This document shows positions 1,948 through 46,224 of a stretch of DNA of 64,000 nt, one piece after another. Position numbers and translations under genes: made by a program. The DNA comes from Candidatus Neomarinimicrobiota bacterium. GTDB taxonomy: Bacteria > Fidelibacterota > Marinisomatia > Marinisomatales > TCS55. The notes beneath the pieces are model-generated. The model made no database searches, was not told where the DNA came from, and saw only the letters and a program-made list of their open reading frames with translations. The first letter of the stretch is position 1; each line of letters begins with the position of its first letter. The stretch is taken from the NCBI GenBank assembly GCA_018651745.1, contig JABIDL010000030.1, positions 4,850 through 68,849 of the forward strand. Direction: 5' to 3'.

Positions 1948-3549
1948 ATGAAGCAACTCATCACAGTCTGGCTCATCCGAATCTTAACCGCAACCATTTT
2001 CATCGGAGGCGTTTTACCGGTTTTAACTACACCGGTTTCTGCCCAAGAATCCAATAAGAAGAAAAAGAAAAAAAGCCGAAAAAAACCTTCTAAGAAAAAA
2101 TCATCTAAGAAGAAAAAGAAATCCTCTAAAAAAAAGAAGCGAGGAAAGGCTAAAAAGAAACGTAAAAAAAGACCCACAAAAAAGAATAAAGCAAAACGTA
2201 AAACCAAAAAATCGAGTAGTTCAAAATCAACCGTGGCAGACCGGTCACGTCCACCTAAGATGAATGTGACAGAATTTGCCGATGAGTTATACACCATTAC
2301 TGAGGCACTGAATGTCAGTTCAGATCAATTATCCCGAGCAACGTCTTATCTTAAAGAGCCGGATCAAAAGCGCCTTGTTAGGCTGGATTCGAGGGAAGCA
2401 TTTACGACAACGGACTATGAAAAAGCAGCAGATAATGCACCTCAAAATATCCGCCTTCAAAGACAACTCGGTTTGCATTATGAATCGGTTCAGGAATTCG
2501 AAAAGGCAAAAGATGTGTATTTCCGGCTTTTGACTAAAGAACCCCAGAATTCGGATTATCATTACTTTTTAGGTTCCCTTTATGCTAAAGTTGGCGCTAT
2601 TGGGAAGGCACAGCATTCATTCGAAGAAGCCTTAGATCTCCAACCTGATCATTATCAAACGTTAAATGCGATGGCATCTTTTTTAGGTTCGCCCCGTGAA
2701 AAAAATATGAGCAATGAAGTATTATCTCGATCTGCAGTAAAAAACCCGGATGGTCCGGCTCAGCAAATGACATCCATCCAAAATAAATTGAACTCGGGAG
2801 AAGCCCAAAAGGCAATTATGTTGGCAAAATCTGCTTCTGAAGAGCATCCTAACCACAGTGGATTTATATTTCTGCAAGGCAAGGGATATGAAGATCTTGG
2901 CGAAATTGATCAATCTAAAGCGTCTTACCAAAAAGCAATCCACATGGATCCAAAAAATAAGGAATCCCATATGGCACTTGCGAACTTGTACTACAACCAA
3001 GGAAAATATGTGTATTCTGCATTGGGTTATAGTGATGTAGTCTATCTCGATCCGTATAATGTTGATGCCCGATACATGCAAGGGCTCAGTTATTACAACG
3101 CATCCGAATGGGGAAGAGCCGCCAATGCTTGGGAAGATCTTTTGCATTATGATCCACAGCATCCGTTGGTCCGCATGTTGTTGCCCCAAGCATATTATGT
3201 ATTGGCAGTGGAATACAACCGAATCGGAAAATCGGCACAAGGACGCTCGGCATTTGAAAAAGCAATGAGCATTAATTCTAACACGAGATCTTGGCTTTCG
3301 GGTGCGATGCGAACCTTGGGGAAAACGTATCGGGAGCGAGGAATGTATAAAGAATCGCTGGCCGCTTTTCAGGAAGTGATCGAACTAAAACCAGCCGATT
3401 CAAATGCATACCTTGGCATGGGTGTAACCTATTGGAAAATGCAAGAAACTCAACTAGCAAAAGCTGCATGGAATCGCAGTCTGGAATTAAGCCCGGATGA
3501 CAATGAAGCAAAGGGTTGGTTGTTCATTGCACATCAAGCTGGTTCTTGA
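1948..3549 (+). CDS. Exported TPR protein with a long lysine-rich N-terminal tract
   Basis: A 533-residue protein. A signal peptide (hydrophobic residues about 7-30, cleavage near VSAQ) is followed by an extreme basic segment: residues 37-88 contain 38 Lys or Arg out of 52, mixed with Ser and Pro. From about residue 140 to the end there are repeated 34-residue TPR units (for example YFLGSLYAKVGAIGKAQHSF and AYLGMGVTYWKMQETQLAKA), a scaffold for protein-protein contacts. The basic tract would lie outside the inner membrane, where it could bind an anionic envelope polymer; that is inference. Next comes another exported TPR-like protein 38 bases downstream. Confidence 0.75.
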   Translation: MKQLITVWLIRILTATIFIGGVLPVLTTPVSAQESNKKKKKKSRKKPSKKKSSKKKKKSSKKKKRGKAKKKRKKRPTKKNKAKRKTKKSSSSKSTVADRSRPPKMNVTEFADELYTITEALNVSSDQLSRATSYLKEPDQKRLVRLDSREAFTTTDYEKAADNAPQNIRLQRQLGLHYESVQEFEKAKDVYFRLLTKEPQNSDYHYFLGSLYAKVGAIGKAQHSFEEALDLQPDHYQTLNAMASFLGSPREKNMSNEVLSRSAVKNPDGPAQQMTSIQNKLNSGEAQKAIMLAKSASEEHPNHSGFIFLQGKGYEDLGEIDQSKASYQKAIHMDPKNKESHMALANLYYNQGKYVYSALGYSDVVYLDPYNVDARYMQGLSYYNASEWGRAANAWEDLLHYDPQHPLVRMLLPQAYYVLAVEYNRIGKSAQGRSAFEKAMSINSNTRSWLSGAMRTLGKTYRERGMYKESLAAFQEVIELKPADSNAYLGMGVTYWKMQETQLAKAAWNRSLELSPDDNEAKGWLFIAHQAGS

Positions 3550-3587
3550 GCACTCGTTTATTTCGTAATATTCCCTTTCTTAATTCT

Positions 3588-6461: not shown

Positions 6462-8003
6462 ATGGTTTCCAAAGTTCTTAGTAGCGCTGTCCTTGGGATT
6501 GATGCCTACATTGTTGAGGTTGAGGCAAACCTTTCCGGTGCTCAGTTACCCAAATTTATAACCGTTGGCCTCCCGGAAGGTGCCGTAAAGGAAAGCAAAG
6601 AACGAGTCACAGCTGCGATTCGCAACAGCGATTTTATTTTACCATATAAACATATTACAATCAACCTTGCTCCGGCGGATATTCGCAAAGAAGGATCTGC
6701 ATTTGATCTTCCGATTGCCGTTGGAATCCTTGCAGCCACCGGTGCGGTAAAACAAAATTTTCTCAACAATTTGCTTTTGTTGGGTGAACTTGCTTTGGAT
6801 GGCTCGCTCAGACCAATCAAGGGAGCGCTCCCGATCGCCATTAACGCTGCCAAAAAAGGAATTAAGGGAATCATTCTTCCAAACGAAAATGCGCAAGAAG
6901 CCGGAATTGTGGACGGTATAAAAGTAGCCGGTGTGGATTCACTGGCAGAAGTGGCGGCTCTGCTAAATGGAAAAATGTCCATGGATCCTATCAAAGTAGA
7001 TAGACAGAAACTCTTTAATGAACAAAAAAATTATGATTTGGATTTTGCCGATGTGAAAGGTCAGGAACATGTAAAGCGTGCAATTGAAGTGGCAGCAGCC
7101 GGAGGGCATAACGCCATTATGATCGGTCCTCCCGGAAGCGGGAAGACGATGCTGGCAAAACGTCTTCCGACCATTCTTCCGGACCTCGTATTGGAAGAAG
7201 CACTACAGACTACCAAAATTCATTCCGTTGCCGGATTGCTTCCAGATGGAAAGGGGCTGATTGCTACACGTCCGTACCGTTCGCCGCATCATACTATTTC
7301 GGATGCAGGACTGATTGGCGGCGGAACGGTTCCGAAACCGGGTGAAGTCAGTCTTGCGCACAACGGTGTATTGTTTTTAGATGAACTTCCGGAGTTCAAG
7401 AAAAATGTTTTGGAGGTCATGCGTCAACCGCTGGAGGATGGTTCTGTTACCATCGCGCGCGCAACAATGTCGCTAAGTTACCCATCCAATTTTATGTTGG
7501 TGGCGGCTATGAATCCATGTCCTTGTGGTTATGCGACAGATCCGAAAAATGAATGCACCTGTAATCCGCAATTGATTCAAAAATATATGAGTCGAATTTC
7601 AGGTCCACTCATGGATCGAATTGATATTCACATCGAAGTCCCGTCAATCTCATTTGATGAATTATCCGAGAAGGAAAGTGGGGAAGCATCCAAATTTGTG
7701 CAAAAAAGAGTGCAGAATACCCGCAATGTTCAATTAACAAGGTTTGAAGGAAGAGATTCCATTTTTTGCAATGCACAAATGGAATCCAAAAATATTGCTG
7801 ATTATTGTAAAATTGACAAAGAAGCATCTGATTTGCTGAAGACAGCCATGGAAAAATTGGGCCTATCAGCTCGAGCGTACGATCGGATTTTAAAAGTATC
7901 ACGGACGATTGCAGATTTAGAATCTTTAAAAGAAATCAGTTCTCAACATGTGAGCGAAGCAATTCAATATCGTAGCCTGGATCGTAAGTTATGGCTTCAA
8001 TGA
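6462..8003 (+). CDS. comM: ComM/YifB-family Mg-chelatase-like AAA+ ATPase
   Basis: A 513-residue protein, the usual family length. The N-terminal domain (1-165) is the ChlI-type Lon-protease-like fold (SSAVLGIDAYIVEVE, FITVGLPEGAVKESKERV). The AAA+ core has Walker A GPPGSGKT (222-229), Walker B with LFLDELPEF, and the cysteine insert CPCGYATDP...CTC. In naturally competent bacteria ComM is a hexameric branch-migration helicase that helps integrate transforming DNA. It starts right after the preceding stop. A RAYT gene overlaps its 3' end, which may be a later insertion. Confidence 0.93.
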   Translation: MVSKVLSSAVLGIDAYIVEVEANLSGAQLPKFITVGLPEGAVKESKERVTAAIRNSDFILPYKHITINLAPADIRKEGSAFDLPIAVGILAATGAVKQNFLNNLLLLGELALDGSLRPIKGALPIAINAAKKGIKGIILPNENAQEAGIVDGIKVAGVDSLAEVAALLNGKMSMDPIKVDRQKLFNEQKNYDLDFADVKGQEHVKRAIEVAAAGGHNAIMIGPPGSGKTMLAKRLPTILPDLVLEEALQTTKIHSVAGLLPDGKGLIATRPYRSPHHTISDAGLIGGGTVPKPGEVSLAHNGVLFLDELPEFKKNVLEVMRQPLEDGSVTIARATMSLSYPSNFMLVAAMNPCPCGYATDPKNECTCNPQLIQKYMSRISGPLMDRIDIHIEVPSISFDELSEKESGEASKFVQKRVQNTRNVQLTRFEGRDSIFCNAQMESKNIADYCKIDKEASDLLKTAMEKLGLSARAYDRILKVSRTIADLESLKEISSQHVSEAIQYRSLDRKLWLQ

Positions 8004-8533
8004 AAGGAAAAAGAAAACATATTCGATTAGCTGATTATGATTATTCTCAATCAGGTATTTATTTTGTCACAATTTGCTCTCAGATACGGGAATGTATTTT
8101 TGGTGAAATAACGAATGGAAACATGAAATTAAATCTAATCGGGAATATTGCTTACCGTTGCTGGGAGGGAATCGAAAAGCATTATACGTCTGTAAATCTG
8201 TTTGATTTTGTAGTGATGCCAAATCATGTGCATGGAATGGTAGGATTGAATTCAACTCAATTCAAAAATCCGGTATTAGGTGATATTGTTGGCAAATATA
8301 AAGCAGCAGTAACAAGGGAAATAAACAAACGTAGGGGCGAGATATATCGCGCCCCTACAAAGGTTTGGCAAAGAAATTATTATGAACACATCATTCGGAA
8401 CGAAACTGCATTCGAGAGAATTACAGAATACATTCGATCCAATCCATCCAATTGGAAACAGGATAAAGAAAACCGAGATCGAAACAAATTGAATAATTTT
8501 TATGGATGGGTAGATACCTACTGGAAAAATTAA
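7991..8533 (+). CDS. rayT: REP-associated tyrosine transposase (RAYT, Y1_Tnp/IS200-like)
   Basis: A 180-residue single-domain HUH protein. The start begins with KRKHIRLADYDYSQSGIYFV, typical of RAYTs. The HUH motif is NHVHG (His79, His81), and the C-terminal helix WQRNYYEHIIRN holds the candidate catalytic tyrosine (Tyr130 or Tyr131). An alternative start at 8000 gives an ATGA overlap with comM. RAYTs nick and join REP hairpins and are thought to spread them without self-mobilising like an insertion sequence. The coding sequence itself contains a REP-like palindrome (8331-8358) that encodes residues 114-123, between the two motifs. No flanking IS-type ends were seen. Confidence 0.9.
   Translation: MASMKGKRKHIRLADYDYSQSGIYFVTICSQIRECIFGEITNGNMKLNLIGNIAYRCWEGIEKHYTSVNLFDFVVMPNHVHGMVGLNSTQFKNPVLGDIVGKYKAAVTREINKRRGEIYRAPTKVWQRNYYEHIIRNETAFERITEYIRSNPSNWKQDKENRDRNKLNNFYGWVDTYWKN
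8331..8358. repeat. REP-type 28-bp palindrome inside the RAYT gene
   Basis: An inverted repeat with left arm GTAGGGGCGAGATA and a right arm complementary to it except for one A/G mismatch at positions 10 and 19. It lies entirely within RAYT coding sequence. It matches the perfect 28-bp palindrome at 43034-43061 at 27 of 28 positions. Its GTAGGGGCG...CGCCCCTAC form resembles REP elements associated with RAYT proteins. Confidence 0.85.
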
Positions 8534-8541
8534 AGAAAAAT

Positions 8542-9051
8542 ATGATACTCATTATCAGTTCAAGTTTGAATCCCAACAGCCTGAGCAGGGTCATGGCTCA
8601 ACAGGTCAAGATTAGACTTGAGGAAAATAATGCGGAAGCTGAATTTATTGATATGCGTAATTACGATCTTCCTTTTTGCGATGGAGACTCATGTTACAAT
8701 CATCCGAAAGTAAAGGAAGTAAAGGAAAAAATACAGTCAGCTCGTGCGATTTTATGTGCATCGCCTGTTTATAATTACGATGTGAATGCTGTTTTGAAAA
8801 ATCTGGTCGAACTTACAGGAAAAGCATGGGAAAATAAAACTGTTGGACTTGTATGTTCGGCCGGTGGACAGGGTAGTTATATGAGTCCGATGCCATTTTT
8901 AAACAGTTTGATGCTGGATTTCAGGTGCCACATAATTCCACGCTTTGTTTACACTACAAAATTCGCATTTACAGATGGCGCCATATCTGACGAAAATTTG
9001 AAGAACAGAATTAAAGAATTATCAGCTGAATTAAAAAATACAAGAAGATAA
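8542..9051 (+). CDS. NADPH-dependent FMN reductase (flavodoxin fold)
   Basis: A 169-residue protein starting at the ATG at 8542. An upstream in-frame ATG at 8506 lies inside the RAYT gene and adds an atypical tail. The N-terminus (MILIISSSLNPNSLSR) is the FMN-phosphate-binding loop of the NADPH-dependent FMN reductase family. The second flavin loop is ASPVYNYDVNAVLKN, then GLVCSAGG. The family reduces FMN, quinones or azo compounds with NAD(P)H in the cytosol. Substrate unknown. It is followed 4 bases later by proline iminopeptidase. Confidence 0.85.
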   Translation: MILIISSSLNPNSLSRVMAQQVKIRLEENNAEAEFIDMRNYDLPFCDGDSCYNHPKVKEVKEKIQSARAILCASPVYNYDVNAVLKNLVELTGKAWENKTVGLVCSAGGQGSYMSPMPFLNSLMLDFRCHIIPRFVYTTKFAFTDGAISDENLKNRIKELSAELKNTRR

Positions 9052-37748: not shown

Positions 37749-40064
37749 ATGGTAAACAAATTTATATTATGTCTGTTTGCCTTGAATTGTGGTCTTTTTG
37801 CCGAGCCGCTCGACCCGCGCTTTCACTCGTTTAATGAAATAAAATCCTTCCTCGATTCGCTCGATCAATTAGAACAATACGAGGATATATTTCGTGTGGA
37901 TACGATTGGCTACTCCGGCGCCGAAACTTTGCCTATACTTGCGGTGAAAATTTCCGATAATGTTCACATAAAAGAAGATGAACCAAGAGTATTATTTCTT
38001 GGACAATGCCATGCAGAAGAAATACTTGGTGTGGAGGCAGTATTGGAAATGATTTTGACACTACTGAGTCCACCCCCCCCTATGGCAAGTCATGTTCAGA
38101 TTTTGCGACAGGAAATTGAAACATGGATCATTCCCACCTACAATCCGGAAGGCTTAAATGTGGTTCATTCGGAAATGGATTTAAGCTATCGAAAAAACAA
38201 ACGCGATTTCAGCCCGACCGGGCCGACTCCCAACGGTGTGTTTGATTTTGATCCGAGTATCGGTAACGATGTGGATGGTGTGGATTTAAACAGGAATTAC
38301 GATTTCAATTGGTTTTTTGGTGATTCGTTTTTAGTTAATGATCCAACGGATTATGCTGCCCATTATGATTATTATCGTGGTCCTGAACCTTTTTCAGAAC
38401 AGGAGACAAAGGCTATTCGTGATTTTGCATTGGAACAGGATTTTCTTTTTTCCATTGCGTGGCACAGTGCTAGATCGGGGCGTTATTCTGAATTGGTGAT
38501 TTCATCTTGGAAATGGGCAGAAGGGAAAAATACCCCGGACAATAATGCTCAAAATACCATTGCCGATGCATTGGCTGGAAACCTTCAAAAAGAGTACAGT
38601 GAAGATTTTTACCAGTCTGAGCAGAGTGTGTCACGTCGGGGGAATGCTCACGATTGGTTTTATACTGCAACGGGTTGTTTTCAATATCTTGTTGAGTGTG
38701 GGACTGCAAATCTGCAACCCGACAGCGCGTTGATTGAAGATACGATCCAGAGGTTAATCCCTGGAATGGTGTACTTAATGGATCGAACGATTGGTTATCA
38801 AGAAGATGCCGCCCAAATCACCGGAATTGTAACGGACGAATTGGGAAATCCTTTTGAGGATGTGGAAATTATCATCAATGAATTAAACGGTGGTGTTAAC
38901 GATCCGCGCCTGACGGATGAATTTGGGCGGTATCGGCGTATTGTCACTGAAGGCACTTATCAGTTAACGGCGCAAAAATACGGGTATGAACCGGTAACAA
39001 ATACGATCACCGCAAACAACAGTGGAACCACAATACTGGATTTTTCTTTGGATCCGCTAACCGAGGTTAACATCAATTTATCGATCGGGTTTTACCAACA
39101 ATTATGGCACGATGAACATTTCTCATGGATAATGACTAATGATTTTTTTACAGATACAATCATTGTTGATGATGGTAGTAATACATTTGCGATGCCAAAG
39201 GGTAATTGGGACATTCAAACAGTTTATGACGACAGCTATTTTCCGTGGATAAGGAATCTTGAATTGGACTCAGACATGGAAATCAACGTGAGTTTTAGGC
39301 AGAATGTAATTGACACAGTTTTAGGCTTCGGCGATTCGACGATGTGGAACCAAATTGGAGGTGACTGGACAATTGATTCGGGATCTCTTAGATCTCAAGT
39401 TGGTTCTTTCTACAATAATGGAAACAGGGAAGATACCCTTGAAATTCGATCCCGATGGTTTGATATGACCGGAATGCAACAGATTGCTTGTGTAATCAAT
39501 CACCGCTACGAACTTGAATGGGACGTGGATTCCCTGTTTCTTACACTGGTGAACGGACAGGACAGCGTTTTAACAGAATGGTCCGCGACCGACCAGAATT
39601 GGCATGCATTTCGTACGGACAGAATTGTTGCGCGGGATACGTCTGGATTTGACTCAGTCCGAGTGCGGTTAAGGTTTTCACGGGATGCTTCTGTCAATTA
39701 CCGCGGCTGGGAAATAGCATCATTGCGCATCTTGGGTTTGGATGACCCGTATCTGAATGTTACAGAATCAGGCCCTCAAATCCGTTCTTCTTTCTCGGTT
39801 TCCGACCCGTATCCAAATCCGTCATCCGGTATGATTTCCATTGATATGGAGCACATTCAATTTCCGTTGCAAGTAACTATATTTAATCTGCTAGGACAGG
39901 AAATATTCAACCAATCGTTGAATCAGGGATTTAGGGAACAAATTACATGGCAATTGAATTTGTTTAATCAAATGGATGTACCAATAAGTTCAGGTGTATA
40001 TTTCCTGCGCTTTTCTACCTCACACAAGGAGTTCATCAAAAAATGCGTTTACTTGCGGCCGTAA
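37749..40064 (+). CDS. Secreted M14-family zinc carboxypeptidase with sorting domain
   Basis: A 771-residue protein with signal peptide (MVNKFILCLFALNCGLFAEP). Zinc ligands His88 and Glu91 (GQCHAEEILG), His239 (AWHS); catalytic Glu316 (LVECG); substrate Arg in DLNRNYDFNW (Asn181, Arg182). A CarboxypepD_reg-like module (about 355-430, ITGIVTDELGNPFEDVEI) follows, then a beta-domain and a C-terminal sorting domain (DPYPNPSSGMISI, VTIFNLLGQEIF, SGVYFLRF). Digests peptides outside the cell. Its 3' end overlaps the next gene by 22 bases. Confidence 0.9.
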   Translation: MVNKFILCLFALNCGLFAEPLDPRFHSFNEIKSFLDSLDQLEQYEDIFRVDTIGYSGAETLPILAVKISDNVHIKEDEPRVLFLGQCHAEEILGVEAVLEMILTLLSPPPPMASHVQILRQEIETWIIPTYNPEGLNVVHSEMDLSYRKNKRDFSPTGPTPNGVFDFDPSIGNDVDGVDLNRNYDFNWFFGDSFLVNDPTDYAAHYDYYRGPEPFSEQETKAIRDFALEQDFLFSIAWHSARSGRYSELVISSWKWAEGKNTPDNNAQNTIADALAGNLQKEYSEDFYQSEQSVSRRGNAHDWFYTATGCFQYLVECGTANLQPDSALIEDTIQRLIPGMVYLMDRTIGYQEDAAQITGIVTDELGNPFEDVEIIINELNGGVNDPRLTDEFGRYRRIVTEGTYQLTAQKYGYEPVTNTITANNSGTTILDFSLDPLTEVNINLSIGFYQQLWHDEHFSWIMTNDFFTDTIIVDDGSNTFAMPKGNWDIQTVYDDSYFPWIRNLELDSDMEINVSFRQNVIDTVLGFGDSTMWNQIGGDWTIDSGSLRSQVGSFYNNGNREDTLEIRSRWFDMTGMQQIACVINHRYELEWDVDSLFLTLVNGQDSVLTEWSATDQNWHAFRTDRIVARDTSGFDSVRVRLRFSRDASVNYRGWEIASLRILGLDDPYLNVTESGPQIRSSFSVSDPYPNPSSGMISIDMEHIQFPLQVTIFNLLGQEIFNQSLNQGFREQITWQLNLFNQMDVPISSGVYFLRFSTSHKEFIKKCVYLRP

Positions 40065-43000
40065 TTATATCCATCAATGTTTTATTTTCTGCGGATGCAA
40101 ATTTTCGCGGAAAATCAAAAGCAGATTTAACCGGTCAAGCAATTCCGATGGCATTTAAATCATTAGTACAAGCGGAATACGGCCTTGCTGGGAATGACAT
40201 CAATCCGATGCGCGGGACGTATATGATTATTGTTCCGGATGCTTGGGAATCGTACATCAGTATGTTTGCCTCTTTCAAAATGTCTCAGGGATTTGATGTG
40301 ATTGTCAAGAAACAATCTGATGCTGGTAGTTCGGCTGATGAAATAAAAGCGACTATTTCCAATCATCTCGATCAAGATCCACTCTTGGAATATGTACTAC
40401 TAATTGGTGAAGTGAATGAAGGCTCAGGAAGTGTTATTCCTACTTTTTATTATGGTGATGCTAACGATGTTACGGATCAAAAATACTCGCACTTGGTTTC
40501 GGATGATTTCATTCCTGATATTTTTATCGGACGCATGTCGATTACATCTGTAACAGAATTGATGGTTATAACACAAAAGACGATCCAATACCATCGTGAT
40601 CCCCTGGCGTTCAACCCAGATTGGTTGAACAAGGCGCTAGTTGTCGCCGGAAATTACAGCAATTCAATTCCGATTCCGACTACACCCAAATGGACTTCCT
40701 ACTGGCTACGGGATGAACTTTTAAACAACGGCTATGCTTCTGTAGATACGGTCTATTATCCCCCGACACAGCAAGGTGCTTCTCAAATATCTGCTTCAAT
40801 TGATGCCGGCGTAGGCATTGTAAACTACCGCGGTTGGGGTGATGCAAATGGATGGCATTATCCCGAGTTTCATGTAAGCGATGTGGCAGGGCTTAACAAT
40901 GGCTGGATGACCCCGGTCTTCACCAGCTTTGTTTGCAATGCGAATGATTTTGGGAACCCTACAGTGCCAACTTGTTTTGGTGAATCGTTAATTCGTGCTG
41001 GAACACCCACAGTTCCGCAGGGTGGCGTTGCCATTATCGGTCCGTCAGATTTACATACGAGCACAAAATTCAATAATGTGATAAATGCTTATATGTTTGA
41101 TGCAATGTTTGACAACGGTGTTACGGAACTTGCTCCGGCAATGCTTGCAGGACAGTTAGGATTACTAACCGAATTCCCGCATTTAGACGGACCGGGTGAA
41201 GGACAAGAATTTTATTTTCACGTGTACAATATCTTGGGCGATCCTTCGCTTTCCATGCACTTGGGTACGCCGGATGTATTTGCGATTGAAGCAGATTCTA
41301 TCTGGTCGGCTGATGGATATATTTCATTAAACGTCACAAATGCCGCCGGGAATCCGGTACGGGATGCAGTTGTCGCAATCATGGCGGATGATTCTCTATT
41401 AGCAAAAGGAATCACAAATTCCAGCGGACAATTTCAAGTTTCGGTGGATCCGGGAGATGCTGCAGCATTGGACATTTACGTGAATAAAAGTGGATTTATC
41501 CAGGGACATGAAGAAGTGTCGATTCATGAATCCGGACAGTCCATTGGATTTATTGGATACGTCTTGAGTGACAATGGAAACGGGCTTGTAGATCCTGGAG
41601 AAAAGGTGGCACTTTACCCAATATTAAAAAATCATTTGGATATCATGATTTCAGGTGGGACCGGAACTGTTTCATCTTCATCCGATATTGAACTTTTGGA
41701 TTCCACCTTTTCTTTTACAGATATTCCGGAAGGAAGTGAAGTGACTGCTACAGATTCTATTGTTTTCCGTTATAAAGGAATGGGATCAATGACTGATCCA
41801 TTGCTTTTATCATTTGAAGCAAATGGGGACGTTGGAAATACATTGGTTTCTGTAAGTGATCCAATTCTCAAAATTGACCTGATTAATACCCCATCACAAT
41901 CAACGGACGGATCTTTATCCATTAGTCCTGATTTAATATTCCACAATTTCAGTAATGCACAACTTGATACAATAAATATCGTGTTGCTCTCTTTGACGGA
42001 TTCAATTTCCATTGATGTTTTTACTACAGAAGTAAAACCACCATTTACTTTGAATTCTTGGGACACCGCTTTTGTGGATTTGGAATATTACAATTTAAAT
42101 ATTGGTGATGTTTCCATAAGCAGTGAGTTATCTCTTGCGATAATATTAACGGATGCAGTTTGGAATAAATTGGATTCTATACGCATTGATATTCCTATAA
42201 ATCCATCAAATGAAAATCAGACAATGAACCCATCGGATTACGGTTATTGGTCCTACGATGATATTGATTCAGGTTATACACAGACACCTGAATTCAACTG
42301 GGTTGAGCTTGATCCTGCTCACGGGGGTTCCGGCGGAACGGAATATGTTTTGGACGACGACGATCACATCCGCGTGGACCTGCCGTTTGCATTCCAATAT
42401 TTTGGGAATTCCTACGATCAGATTACCATCAGTTCCAACGGCTGGACATCCTTCGAAACAACGCCAGTGGATTATTTCTGGAATTTTTCGATTCCCATGG
42501 CGATGGGTCCGAATGCCATGCTTGCGCCGTTCTGGGATGACCTTGAAACCATTGACACGGACGGAGACGACGCAATTGATGTGTGGATAAATGTTTTCAC
42601 AAGATATGACGAATTGGAAGGCCGCTTCATCATTGAATGGTCTCGCGCACTGAACGGTTACGACGAGGCGACAGAAGAGACATTTGAAATTATTTTGTAT
42701 TCCCAGTCCGCCATACCGACAGCAACCGGCGACGGCGTGATTGAATTTCAGTATTACAAGATAGACAATGTGGATGTGACTAAGAATTATTCCACGGTCG
42801 GGATCGAGTCGCCGGACAAGAATGACGGACTTCAAATCACTTTCAATAATACATACGCCGCCGGCGCGGCAGCTTTGGACAGCGGGCGGGTGATTCGATT
42901 TACAACTGAGGCGCCGGAAAATTATGTGCCGTCCTTGAGCGTTGAGGATGACATTATTCCAAGCGGATTCCAACTGCATCCCGTATTTCCCAATCCATTC

Positions 43001-43237
43001 AATCCTTCCACAACCATTCGTTTTCAAATCCCTGTAGGGGCGAGATATATCTCGCCCCTACAATTACGGGTTTACGATATAACCGGAAGATTGGTGGAAA
43101 CATTGGTGGATGGAAACATGCAACCGGGAAGGCACGAAATTGTTTGGAATGCCAAACAACACAGCAGCGGAATGTATTTTGTAGAATTAGGGTCAGGGTC
43201 ATTCCGCCAGACGCAAAAAATGATTCTCCTGAAATAG
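40043..43237 (+). CDS. C25-like secreted protein with sorting domain and in-frame REP insertion
   Basis: A 1064-residue protein; signal MRLLAAVIISINVLFSA. C25-like domain (about 60-400): YMIIVPDAWESYISMFASF, LLIGEVNEG, putative nucleophile Cys298 (TSFVCNANDFG), but the gingipain GHG site reads NYRGWGDANGW. Residues about 735-950 form a beta-sandwich like that of the protein at 25365. The C-terminal sorting domain has FPNPFNPSTTIRFQIP, then residues encoded by a 28-bp REP palindrome, then LRVYDITGRLVETL and SGMYFVEL. G+C rises sharply from about 42240, so the 3' third may be recombined. Activity is uncertain. Confidence 0.78.
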   Translation: MRLLAAVIISINVLFSADANFRGKSKADLTGQAIPMAFKSLVQAEYGLAGNDINPMRGTYMIIVPDAWESYISMFASFKMSQGFDVIVKKQSDAGSSADEIKATISNHLDQDPLLEYVLLIGEVNEGSGSVIPTFYYGDANDVTDQKYSHLVSDDFIPDIFIGRMSITSVTELMVITQKTIQYHRDPLAFNPDWLNKALVVAGNYSNSIPIPTTPKWTSYWLRDELLNNGYASVDTVYYPPTQQGASQISASIDAGVGIVNYRGWGDANGWHYPEFHVSDVAGLNNGWMTPVFTSFVCNANDFGNPTVPTCFGESLIRAGTPTVPQGGVAIIGPSDLHTSTKFNNVINAYMFDAMFDNGVTELAPAMLAGQLGLLTEFPHLDGPGEGQEFYFHVYNILGDPSLSMHLGTPDVFAIEADSIWSADGYISLNVTNAAGNPVRDAVVAIMADDSLLAKGITNSSGQFQVSVDPGDAAALDIYVNKSGFIQGHEEVSIHESGQSIGFIGYVLSDNGNGLVDPGEKVALYPILKNHLDIMISGGTGTVSSSSDIELLDSTFSFTDIPEGSEVTATDSIVFRYKGMGSMTDPLLLSFEANGDVGNTLVSVSDPILKIDLINTPSQSTDGSLSISPDLIFHNFSNAQLDTINIVLLSLTDSISIDVFTTEVKPPFTLNSWDTAFVDLEYYNLNIGDVSISSELSLAIILTDAVWNKLDSIRIDIPINPSNENQTMNPSDYGYWSYDDIDSGYTQTPEFNWVELDPAHGGSGGTEYVLDDDDHIRVDLPFAFQYFGNSYDQITISSNGWTSFETTPVDYFWNFSIPMAMGPNAMLAPFWDDLETIDTDGDDAIDVWINVFTRYDELEGRFIIEWSRALNGYDEATEETFEIILYSQSAIPTATGDGVIEFQYYKIDNVDVTKNYSTVGIESPDKNDGLQITFNNTYAAGAAALDSGRVIRFTTEAPENYVPSLSVEDDIIPSGFQLHPVFPNPFNPSTTIRFQIPVGARYISPLQLRVYDITGRLVETLVDGNMQPGRHEIVWNAKQHSSGMYFVELGSGSFRQTQKMILLK
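43034..43061. repeat. Perfect 28-bp REP-type palindrome inside a coding sequence
   Basis: Arms GTAGGGGCGAGATA and its exact complement, without a central loop. It lies in frame between FQIP and LRVYD of the sorting domain of the C25-like protein. Differs from the copy in the RAYT gene (8331-8358) at one position. REP elements of RAYT systems are typically intergenic; this one is coding. Confidence 0.9.
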
Positions 43238-44484: not shown

Positions 44485-46224
44485 TTATTTAAGATATAAT
44501 ATTTTTTCAGATGTCGTAGTTGATTGCCCAATTGCATTTACAAAATATAAACCGGATGGAGCACGTTCACCGGTTTCCATTCTTCCGTCCCATGTTAAAG
44601 GTGTACCACCTGCTTCTACATTTCCTTCCAAAATCGTTCGAACTGTTTGTCCAATGGAATTAACAATTTCCACTTCCATTTGTTGTGTCTCGGCTATATT
44701 GATTTGAAATGATGTGGTTCCATTGAATGGATTTGGGTAATTGGATTCTATTTTGATTTCACCCGGGAGTAATGGCTCGCCGATTACTGATGGAATTCCA
44801 TCCGTAATCGAAATGGAATAGTCCCAGTCTCCGCCAACAGTATCTTGGCTAACAATTGCAAGCGTCATAGCTATCATTCCGGTTGGATCAATATTGACTT
44901 CGTTTCCGCTGAAGATTGTAATCAAGCCGGTATTATTTTGTAAAATTGCATTCATTTGAAAATCAGCGGTGTAGGTGGAGACTGAAGATAAAACAACTTT
45001 CATAGGATTATCAGATTCGAGTTTGATATACTGAGTTGCATATTTGTTGAGTGATGTACTTGTGACTGAGGATTCAAATCCTTTGATAAAACTCACTGTT
45101 CTATAAATGCCGGGCTCTGAAATTGGATAATCTTCTGCTTCGCTATAAGTGTAGTCACTTGTTTCTGAATCGGAAGTGAGGAGTAGGTTTGCAATTGCCA
45201 TTCCATTGAGTGCCTCTATAAAAGAAAATCCTTGTTCCACCAACGCTTGGTCAATGTTTGATTGGCTAAAATCCGTTTCATCGCTTGGTTGACTTACACC
45301 AATCTCAAAAATCCGCTGCATCGCACTACTTCCACCCATGTGTTCCTCAATATATTGAAAGAAAATGAAAGAGCCGTACCAATGTGTTCCTCCCGCATTC
45401 AAGGAAGTTTGCGGGTACGCAAACCAAGACGGAAGATATTGATAGCAATCGTTAATAGAATCGTAAACCTGCTCTTCCATCCAAACGGCTGTAGCTTCCA
45501 TCAGCCAAGGTTTTTCGTAGGCATTGTACCCAAATTGGATTGCATGAAAAAACTCATGTGCTGCAGTAACCTGAATATTTTCGATCGGTGTGTTGGACGG
45601 GAATCCATCGTAATCATTTCTCATGGCCATATAACTTGTAACTGCCAGCATTTCTGTTCCCTCGCTATTTTCATTATCGCCATTTCCACTGGCAAAATTT
45701 TCAGCTTGAACGTATCCATAATATCCTGCTTGTAGATTGCGGATATAGATATCATAATGGTCAGACCCACCGCCGGAACCATCTGAAGGCGGTTGAACAT
45801 AATTCATATCTAAAAGCTGATTCGTATGAACATTGCTAAAAATTGTTACCATAGAATCAACGTAGTCAGGGATAGAATTTCCATTCAAATCTTCGCTGCC
45901 AACCGAATGGGTTCCATCGGTTGTGTAATGAAATCGAAACATTCCACTATCGGTAAATTGGTCCAGACCATCGGCCTCCCAACGTGTTATGGATGTATGG
46001 TTGACCAATTCTCCGGTAAATGAATATCCCAATTCTCTTAGAGATTCCTTTTGATTTTCGGAAAGTGAATGTCCATGAAGGGCGATATTAAGAAGGTGTG
46101 GAGTTGTATGAATCCATGGATCAGCTGTCGGATTTAAAATGAAATCAGCAGATAATTCTACTGGTCTTTTCTCAGCAGTGACTACAGACAAAAGAGCCAA
46201 AATTAGTAGGAAATATCGTATCAA
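44485..46224 (-). CDS. Secreted MXAN_6640-like HExxH metalloprotease with sorting domain
   Basis: A 579-residue protein with signal peptide MIRYFLLILALLSVVTA. The zinc motif HEFFH (His223, Glu224, His227) is followed by the third-ligand candidate Glu in MEATAVWMEE (about 242-251), as in the MXAN_6640 family of putative metalloproteases. A Ca-binding-like DLNGNSIPDYVD phrase lies at about 112-123. C-terminal sorting domain: YPNPFNGTTSFQI, VEIVNSIGQTVRTIL, APSGLYFVNA, ending in KILYLK. Last gene of a three-gene minus-strand set. Confidence 0.8.
   Translation of the reverse strand: MIRYFLLILALLSVVTAEKRPVELSADFILNPTADPWIHTTPHLLNIALHGHSLSENQKESLRELGYSFTGELVNHTSITRWEADGLDQFTDSGMFRFHYTTDGTHSVGSEDLNGNSIPDYVDSMVTIFSNVHTNQLLDMNYVQPPSDGSGGGSDHYDIYIRNLQAGYYGYVQAENFASGNGDNENSEGTEMLAVTSYMAMRNDYDGFPSNTPIENIQVTAAHEFFHAIQFGYNAYEKPWLMEATAVWMEEQVYDSINDCYQYLPSWFAYPQTSLNAGGTHWYGSFIFFQYIEEHMGGSSAMQRIFEIGVSQPSDETDFSQSNIDQALVEQGFSFIEALNGMAIANLLLTSDSETSDYTYSEAEDYPISEPGIYRTVSFIKGFESSVTSTSLNKYATQYIKLESDNPMKVVLSSVSTYTADFQMNAILQNNTGLITIFSGNEVNIDPTGMIAMTLAIVSQDTVGGDWDYSISITDGIPSVIGEPLLPGEIKIESNYPNPFNGTTSFQINIAETQQMEVEIVNSIGQTVRTILEGNVEAGGTPLTWDGRMETGERAPSGLYFVNAIGQSTTTSEKILYLK

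Follow-up and report, generated by a model that had tools for sequence, protein, structure and literature searches.

An in-frame REP-type palindrome within the coding sequence of a subclass 2.4-like RAYT from Candidatus Neomarinimicrobiota

The DNA analysed here (the window, 64,000 nucleotides from a Candidatus Neomarinimicrobiota bacterium) contains a RAYT gene which probably encodes an enzyme of the published subclass 2.4 type and carries the cognate double-foot REP in frame within that same gene. The palindrome is real, is common to orthologues of two genera, changes on both arms together, and is a member of a low-copy REP family. Few short repeats in bacteria are as common as REPs, and it is not settled what holds enzyme and repeats together. 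A gene with its substrate built in would be a compact and testable unit for studying this association. Such an arrangement was already described in 2018 (PMC6006769), and the window is a further example of it, not new in kind.

The palindrome and the gene that holds it

The palindrome occupies positions 8331-8358 (GTAGGGGCGAGATATATCGCGCCCCTAC) and spans 28 bp, with 13 of its 14 pairs complementary and an A-G mismatch at pair 10/19 as the sole exception. It is translated in frame within the ORF 7991-8533 as codons 114-123 (RRGEIYRAPT), between H79-V-H81 and Y147 of the RAYT, so that the sequence confirms this part of the initial annotation. The main features of the region are the following:

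6462-8003, plus strand: upstream neighbour, a Mg-chelatase/ComM-type AAA ATPase (Pfam PF01078), which marks the orthologous locus
7991-8533, plus strand: RAYT/TnpA_REP gene, 180 aa (ORF, Pfam, NCBIfam, PDB and fold match)
8222-8236, plus strand: HUH motif region, residues 78-82, N-H-V-H-G (invariant alignment columns)
8331-8358, no strand assigned: internal REP palindrome with a double foot (GTAG...CTAC), read in frame as codons 114-123 at site B
8366-8371, plus strand: W126-Q127, aligned with W94/Q95 of E. coli TnpA_REP through 4er8
8429-8446, plus strand: Y motif, Y147-I-R-S-N-P152, with Y147, I148, N151 and P152 invariant in an alignment of 11 RAYTs; the Tyr is the probable catalytic residue, judging from the family
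8506-9051, plus strand: downstream neighbour, NADPH-dependent FMN reductase family (Pfam and comparison with genomes G002 and G004)
43034-43061, no strand assigned: second palindrome copy, free of mismatches, read in frame within the sorting domain of a C25-peptidase-like protein (CDS 40043-43237)

The double foot GTAG...CTAC agrees with the REP pattern of subclass 2.4, GT[AG]G...C[TC]AC. Folded as single-stranded DNA, the internal copy reaches -14.3 kcal/mol (z = -5.6 versus shuffles), and the second copy shows a z of -7.5. At up to three mismatches the 28-mer is found only twice in the window (8331 and 43034), where dinucleotide shuffles expect 0.00 copies. The family is not restricted to these two, as the whole genome (G000) holds six related palindromes, of which the RAYT contains one and sorting domains four, the sixth being intergenic. 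A control search with the reversed pattern gave no matches across 61 genomes. A palindrome of chance origin, a reading with virtually no probability left, is thus ruled out by the shuffles, by the six genome copies, and by the control. A link to phages was also dropped; phage records gave a single distant match.

The initial annotation had regarded REPs as normally intergenic. This is not the case in G000, where five of the six copies are intragenic, including the second copy of the window, so that the family cannot be called truly intergenic here. REPs are mostly intergenic in three other genomes (G019, G048 and G059).

The protein encoded by the gene matches Pfam Y1_Tnp (33.3 bits) and the NCBIfam model REP_Tyr_transpos (NF047646) with 68.1 bits, which is under the cut-off of 80, a value also missed by relatives with intact cores (68.2 bits for L057 and 74.2 for L087). 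By sequence, its sole relative in the PDB is 4er8, the E. coli TnpA_REP. The AlphaFold model (pLDDT 87.9) matches this structure with a TM of 0.56-0.61 and an rmsd of 3.0, and IS200-type transposases match too. H79-V-H81 and the Tyr motif show little or no variation among 11 and 50 relatives. An IS200/IS605 insertion sequence was rejected: the model NF033573 gives 21.9 bits versus a cut-off of 55, and the ends of the gene show no subterminal hairpins of the IS200/IS605 kind. According to the AlphaFold model, the loop coded by the palindrome (site B) would be located after helix 96-113 and before strand 131-135, just ahead of W126-Q127. A second ATG of the RAYT gene, at 8000, is part of the sequence ATGA (8000-8003), which also contains the TGA stop of the chelatase gene upstream; this overlap suggests translational coupling.

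Relation to described RAYTs and intragenic REPs

REPs located in frame within tnpA_REP genes, with a double foot, have been reported for subclass 2.4 (Bertels group 4) (BMC Genomics 2018;19:475, PMC6006769), a subclass with the motifs NH[IFV]H, WQ, and YIxNNP (PMC6006769). The window RAYT shares NHVH and WQ, its YIRSNP is one residue off the third motif, and it likewise holds its in-frame double-foot REP between HUH and Y. However, this REP occupies the loop before W126-Q127, whereas the usual place is the loop that immediately follows HUH, and no REP hairpins flank the gene within 1.5 kb, the internal one being the only one. Judging from its sequence, the case fits subclass 2.4 save for one residue of the Y motif and the missing flanking REPs. 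The presence of two inverted REPs flanking the gene has been used as a criterion for RAYTs (Nunvar 2010, PMC2817692); given that they are missing here, the cognate pairing rests on a single internal copy and on four or five copies dispersed elsewhere.

The E. coli TnpA_REP (PDB 4er8, REPtron) resembles the window protein in its fold and its HUH-Y1 core, and its W94/Q95 motif has been linked to the recognition of GTAG (PMC6006769). In contrast, the gene of E. coli has flanking REPs, and the literature examined mentions none inside it. By analogy with the foot recognition of the E. coli enzyme, the window RAYT would recognise the hairpin as single-stranded DNA at its GTAG foot.

In-frame REPs of the GTAG/CGTC kind have also been described in assorted genes, listed as repair and RNA genes (Di Nocera 2013, PMC3733652). 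Both there and here, GTAG-tagged palindromes are translated as part of a protein, but here they reside in sorting domains and in the RAYT itself. The Rickettsia palindromic elements (RPE), as far as they are described where cited in PMC3733652, are also mobile palindromes that stay in frame in coding sequences, with a different sequence and, in some of them, a greater length.

The palindrome in orthologues of another genus

The chelatase gene is likewise followed directly by a RAYT gene in G014 and G034 (another genus of the same family), and the two genes also adjoin in G001. No RAYT separates the chelatase gene from the FMN reductase gene in G002 and G004, where the two are immediate neighbours. 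The palindrome is present in both G014 and G034, at the codons that it occupies in G000. This occupation of one site in two genera rules out the recent insertion that the initial annotation had offered as one possible explanation, and the segment is palindromic DNA in these orthologues too, not merely an ordinary stretch of protein.

Comparison of G000 with G014 shows two base pairs changed on both arms (GAGATATATC versus GAGGCATGCCTC), and the amino acids within the palindrome codons change along with them. The G034 copy has two mismatched pairs and appears to be decaying, indicating that maintenance is not strict. Outside the REP codons the dN/dS is ~0.28, which shows that the gene is constrained, and silent change is low inside them (pS 0.13 versus 0.64 outside, with just 10 codons inside). 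Taken together, the shared site, the two-sided changes, and the low silent change indicate that the palindrome is old, and that the symmetry of the DNA outlasts the peptide. This symmetry is kept either by selection or by overwriting by other REP copies, and for the two-sided changes overwriting, not selection on the hairpin, may be the cause. The occupation of site B in orthologues together with two-sided changes was not found in the literature examined.

The peptides encoded at the REP site differ among the three orthologues (RRGEIYRAPT, CRGEACLAPT, and RRSEACLAAT). This lack of conservation argues against a function at the protein level, in which the peptide, placed beside the foot-recognition motif W126-Q127, would tune the REP that is recognised. 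Such a role would suit the position of site B between helix C and strand 4, a region close to REP recognition in other subclasses (PMC6006769). Nevertheless, two unrelated reading frames are used among the relatives (see below), and we regard this role as very unlikely. At site B, a palindrome (GGGCGAATTGCAATTCGCCC) is also present in a distant RAYT from Bacteroidetes (L083, ORF 2968-3558), so that this placement either has several origins or is more ancient than it appears.

Internal hairpins among the relatives

The alignment of 11 RAYTs was used to fetch 80 named loci from many phyla, together with further loci of the phylum of the window. As the relatives were sampled by similarity, the counts among the resulting 114 full-length RAYT ORFs are not estimates of prevalence. 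An internal hairpin with a score of at least 10 is present in 61/114 of these ORFs versus 3/114 in codon shuffles (the best of ten shuffles being taken for each gene), and one with a score of at least 12 in 46/114 versus none. In the 61 ORFs the hairpin is nearly always found between HUH and Tyr. Under a looser rule, REP-like hairpins appear at site A (the loop after HUH) in 75 cases and at site B, that of the window, in four. The internal palindromes start in codon phase 0 in 29 cases, in phase 1 in 32, and never in phase 2, which would place a TAG in frame. The two phases used yield two unrelated peptides, and consequently what is shared is the DNA and not the peptide.

The internal and the flanking REPs are found together in relatives of the window RAYT, and they agree closely. 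In the 19 loci having both, their inner 18 bases show a mean agreement of 0.92, versus 0.53 for permuted pairs, and none of 2000 permutations reached the observed value. REP distance also tracks the distance between RAYT proteins (r = 0.34, 0/5000 permutations). Whole-genome searches revealed that the internal sequence is the main REP family in several genomes (G249 and G250, for example), and in G247 it is the only one, present upstream of, within, and downstream of the RAYT. The initial annotation's view of the palindrome as a REP-type element of the family of its RAYT is therefore upheld by the relatives, in which the internal palindrome matches the REPs beside its own RAYT, is often the dominant REP family of the genome, and diverges in step with the RAYT.

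A neutral alternative is that REPs land anywhere around the RAYT, or anywhere at all, and those seen within genes are the ones lodged in harmless in-frame loops, with no function. The internal positions are indeed tolerant loops, the sorting-domain turn described below likewise hosts REPs in loops, and the insert of subclass 2.4 has been placed in a peripheral extension away from the DNA (PMC6006769). However, REP-like hairpins reach 0.86 per kb within the RAYT gene, compared with 0.41 and 0.29 per kb in the two adjoining 400-bp stretches, which are free of constraint, and 0.04 per kb farther away, a density ~20 times higher inside the gene than in the distant flanks. Uniform placement would, moreover, give 0.0005-0.004 hits per RAYT per genome. 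This neutral origin is a real possibility, although we lean against it.

According to the preferred reading, that of a RAYT with its cognate REP lodged in its own gene, an ancestral RAYT would have inserted or copied its own REP near its own gene, and the survivors would be only those placements in tolerant loops and in a phase without an in-frame TAG. The internal copy would persist because gene and substrate travel together, and also because copying between REPs of the genome would refresh both arms. The cost would be that the gene bears a breakpoint, with RAYTs decaying through deletions that stop at this REP.

Degraded RAYTs that break at the internal REP

G001 belongs to the same genus as the window, and its RAYT is a remnant, in which everything from the chelatase stop to the 5' end of a degenerate palindrome is gone and the 3' part is kept. 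Among 12 usable degraded RAYTs, five (L167, L170, L172, L178 and L184), the G001 remnant included, break at the internal REP, versus ~1 expected (P ~0.002, in a test conceived post hoc after the first case). Only the part after the REP remains in L170, L172 and L184, while L178 misses the part directly after it. The loci left out were those at or near contig ends (L175, L177, L180-L182, L186, and L189), L179 due to a run of N, and L187, which has both halves present.

REP breakpoints: L170, 975-1008; L172, 1072-1101; L184, 994-1021; L178, 1220-1247; L167

The initial annotation had proposed that the arrangement could be self-limiting. In this explanation, the enzyme binds or nicks the hairpin of its own gene or transcript, resulting in restrained expression and in loss by deletion. 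The five breaks, that of G001 among them, point in this direction, if weakly. Against it, recombination of the internal REP with one upstream leaves the same remnant without any action of the enzyme, and could explain three of the five breaks; furthermore, G002 has neither a RAYT nor a REP scar. We consider self-limitation rather unlikely. If the breaks at the REP were enzyme-dependent, this would represent a simple case of a self-limiting domesticated transposase. Degraded RAYTs that end at a REP were not found in the literature examined, and this observation is possibly new.

Copies in sorting domains

The domain that holds the second copy of the window is the C-terminal T9SS sorting domain of the protein encoded by CDS 40043-43237. 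In G000, four of the five copies outside the RAYT are located in the T9SS type A sorting domain (TIGR04183), in four proteins and at one identical turn. The 53 sorting domains of this genome represent ~0.7% of it, and such a concentration would be expected with P ~1e-8. Similarly, all six of the other REP copies of G003 occupy this turn of sorting domains.

Sorting-domain REP loci: 43034-43061 of the window; L003, L004 and L005, near 1501; L202-L207

The native turn has 11 residues, and those bearing a REP have 11, 12, 13, or 15 (a net change of 0 to +4), from which it follows that the REP mostly replaces codons rather than adding them. As the flanks of these REPs are homologous domains, spread through gene conversion between domains is possible. 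The niche suggests that repeats can spread via the turns of secreted proteins without breaking the proteins; it was not found in the literature examined and may be new. A broader model, in which the REP is a working self-target, enzyme-dependent deletion limits the persistence of the enzyme, and the beta-turn of the sorting domain is the main landing site in these genomes, is in our opinion improbable as a whole.

Among the loci L231-L259, several sorting domains (L235, L253, L255, L256, and L258) carry apparent decayed REPs at the same turn, that of L256 being GTAAAGACGCAGCATGCTGCATCTCTAC. Colonisation of this turn may therefore be older and wider than the exact matches show. Another palindrome of the window, of 30 bp and without GTAG feet, is found at 44781-44810, inside a gene for a sorting-domain protein (44485-46224, minus strand), immediately before its sorting domain.
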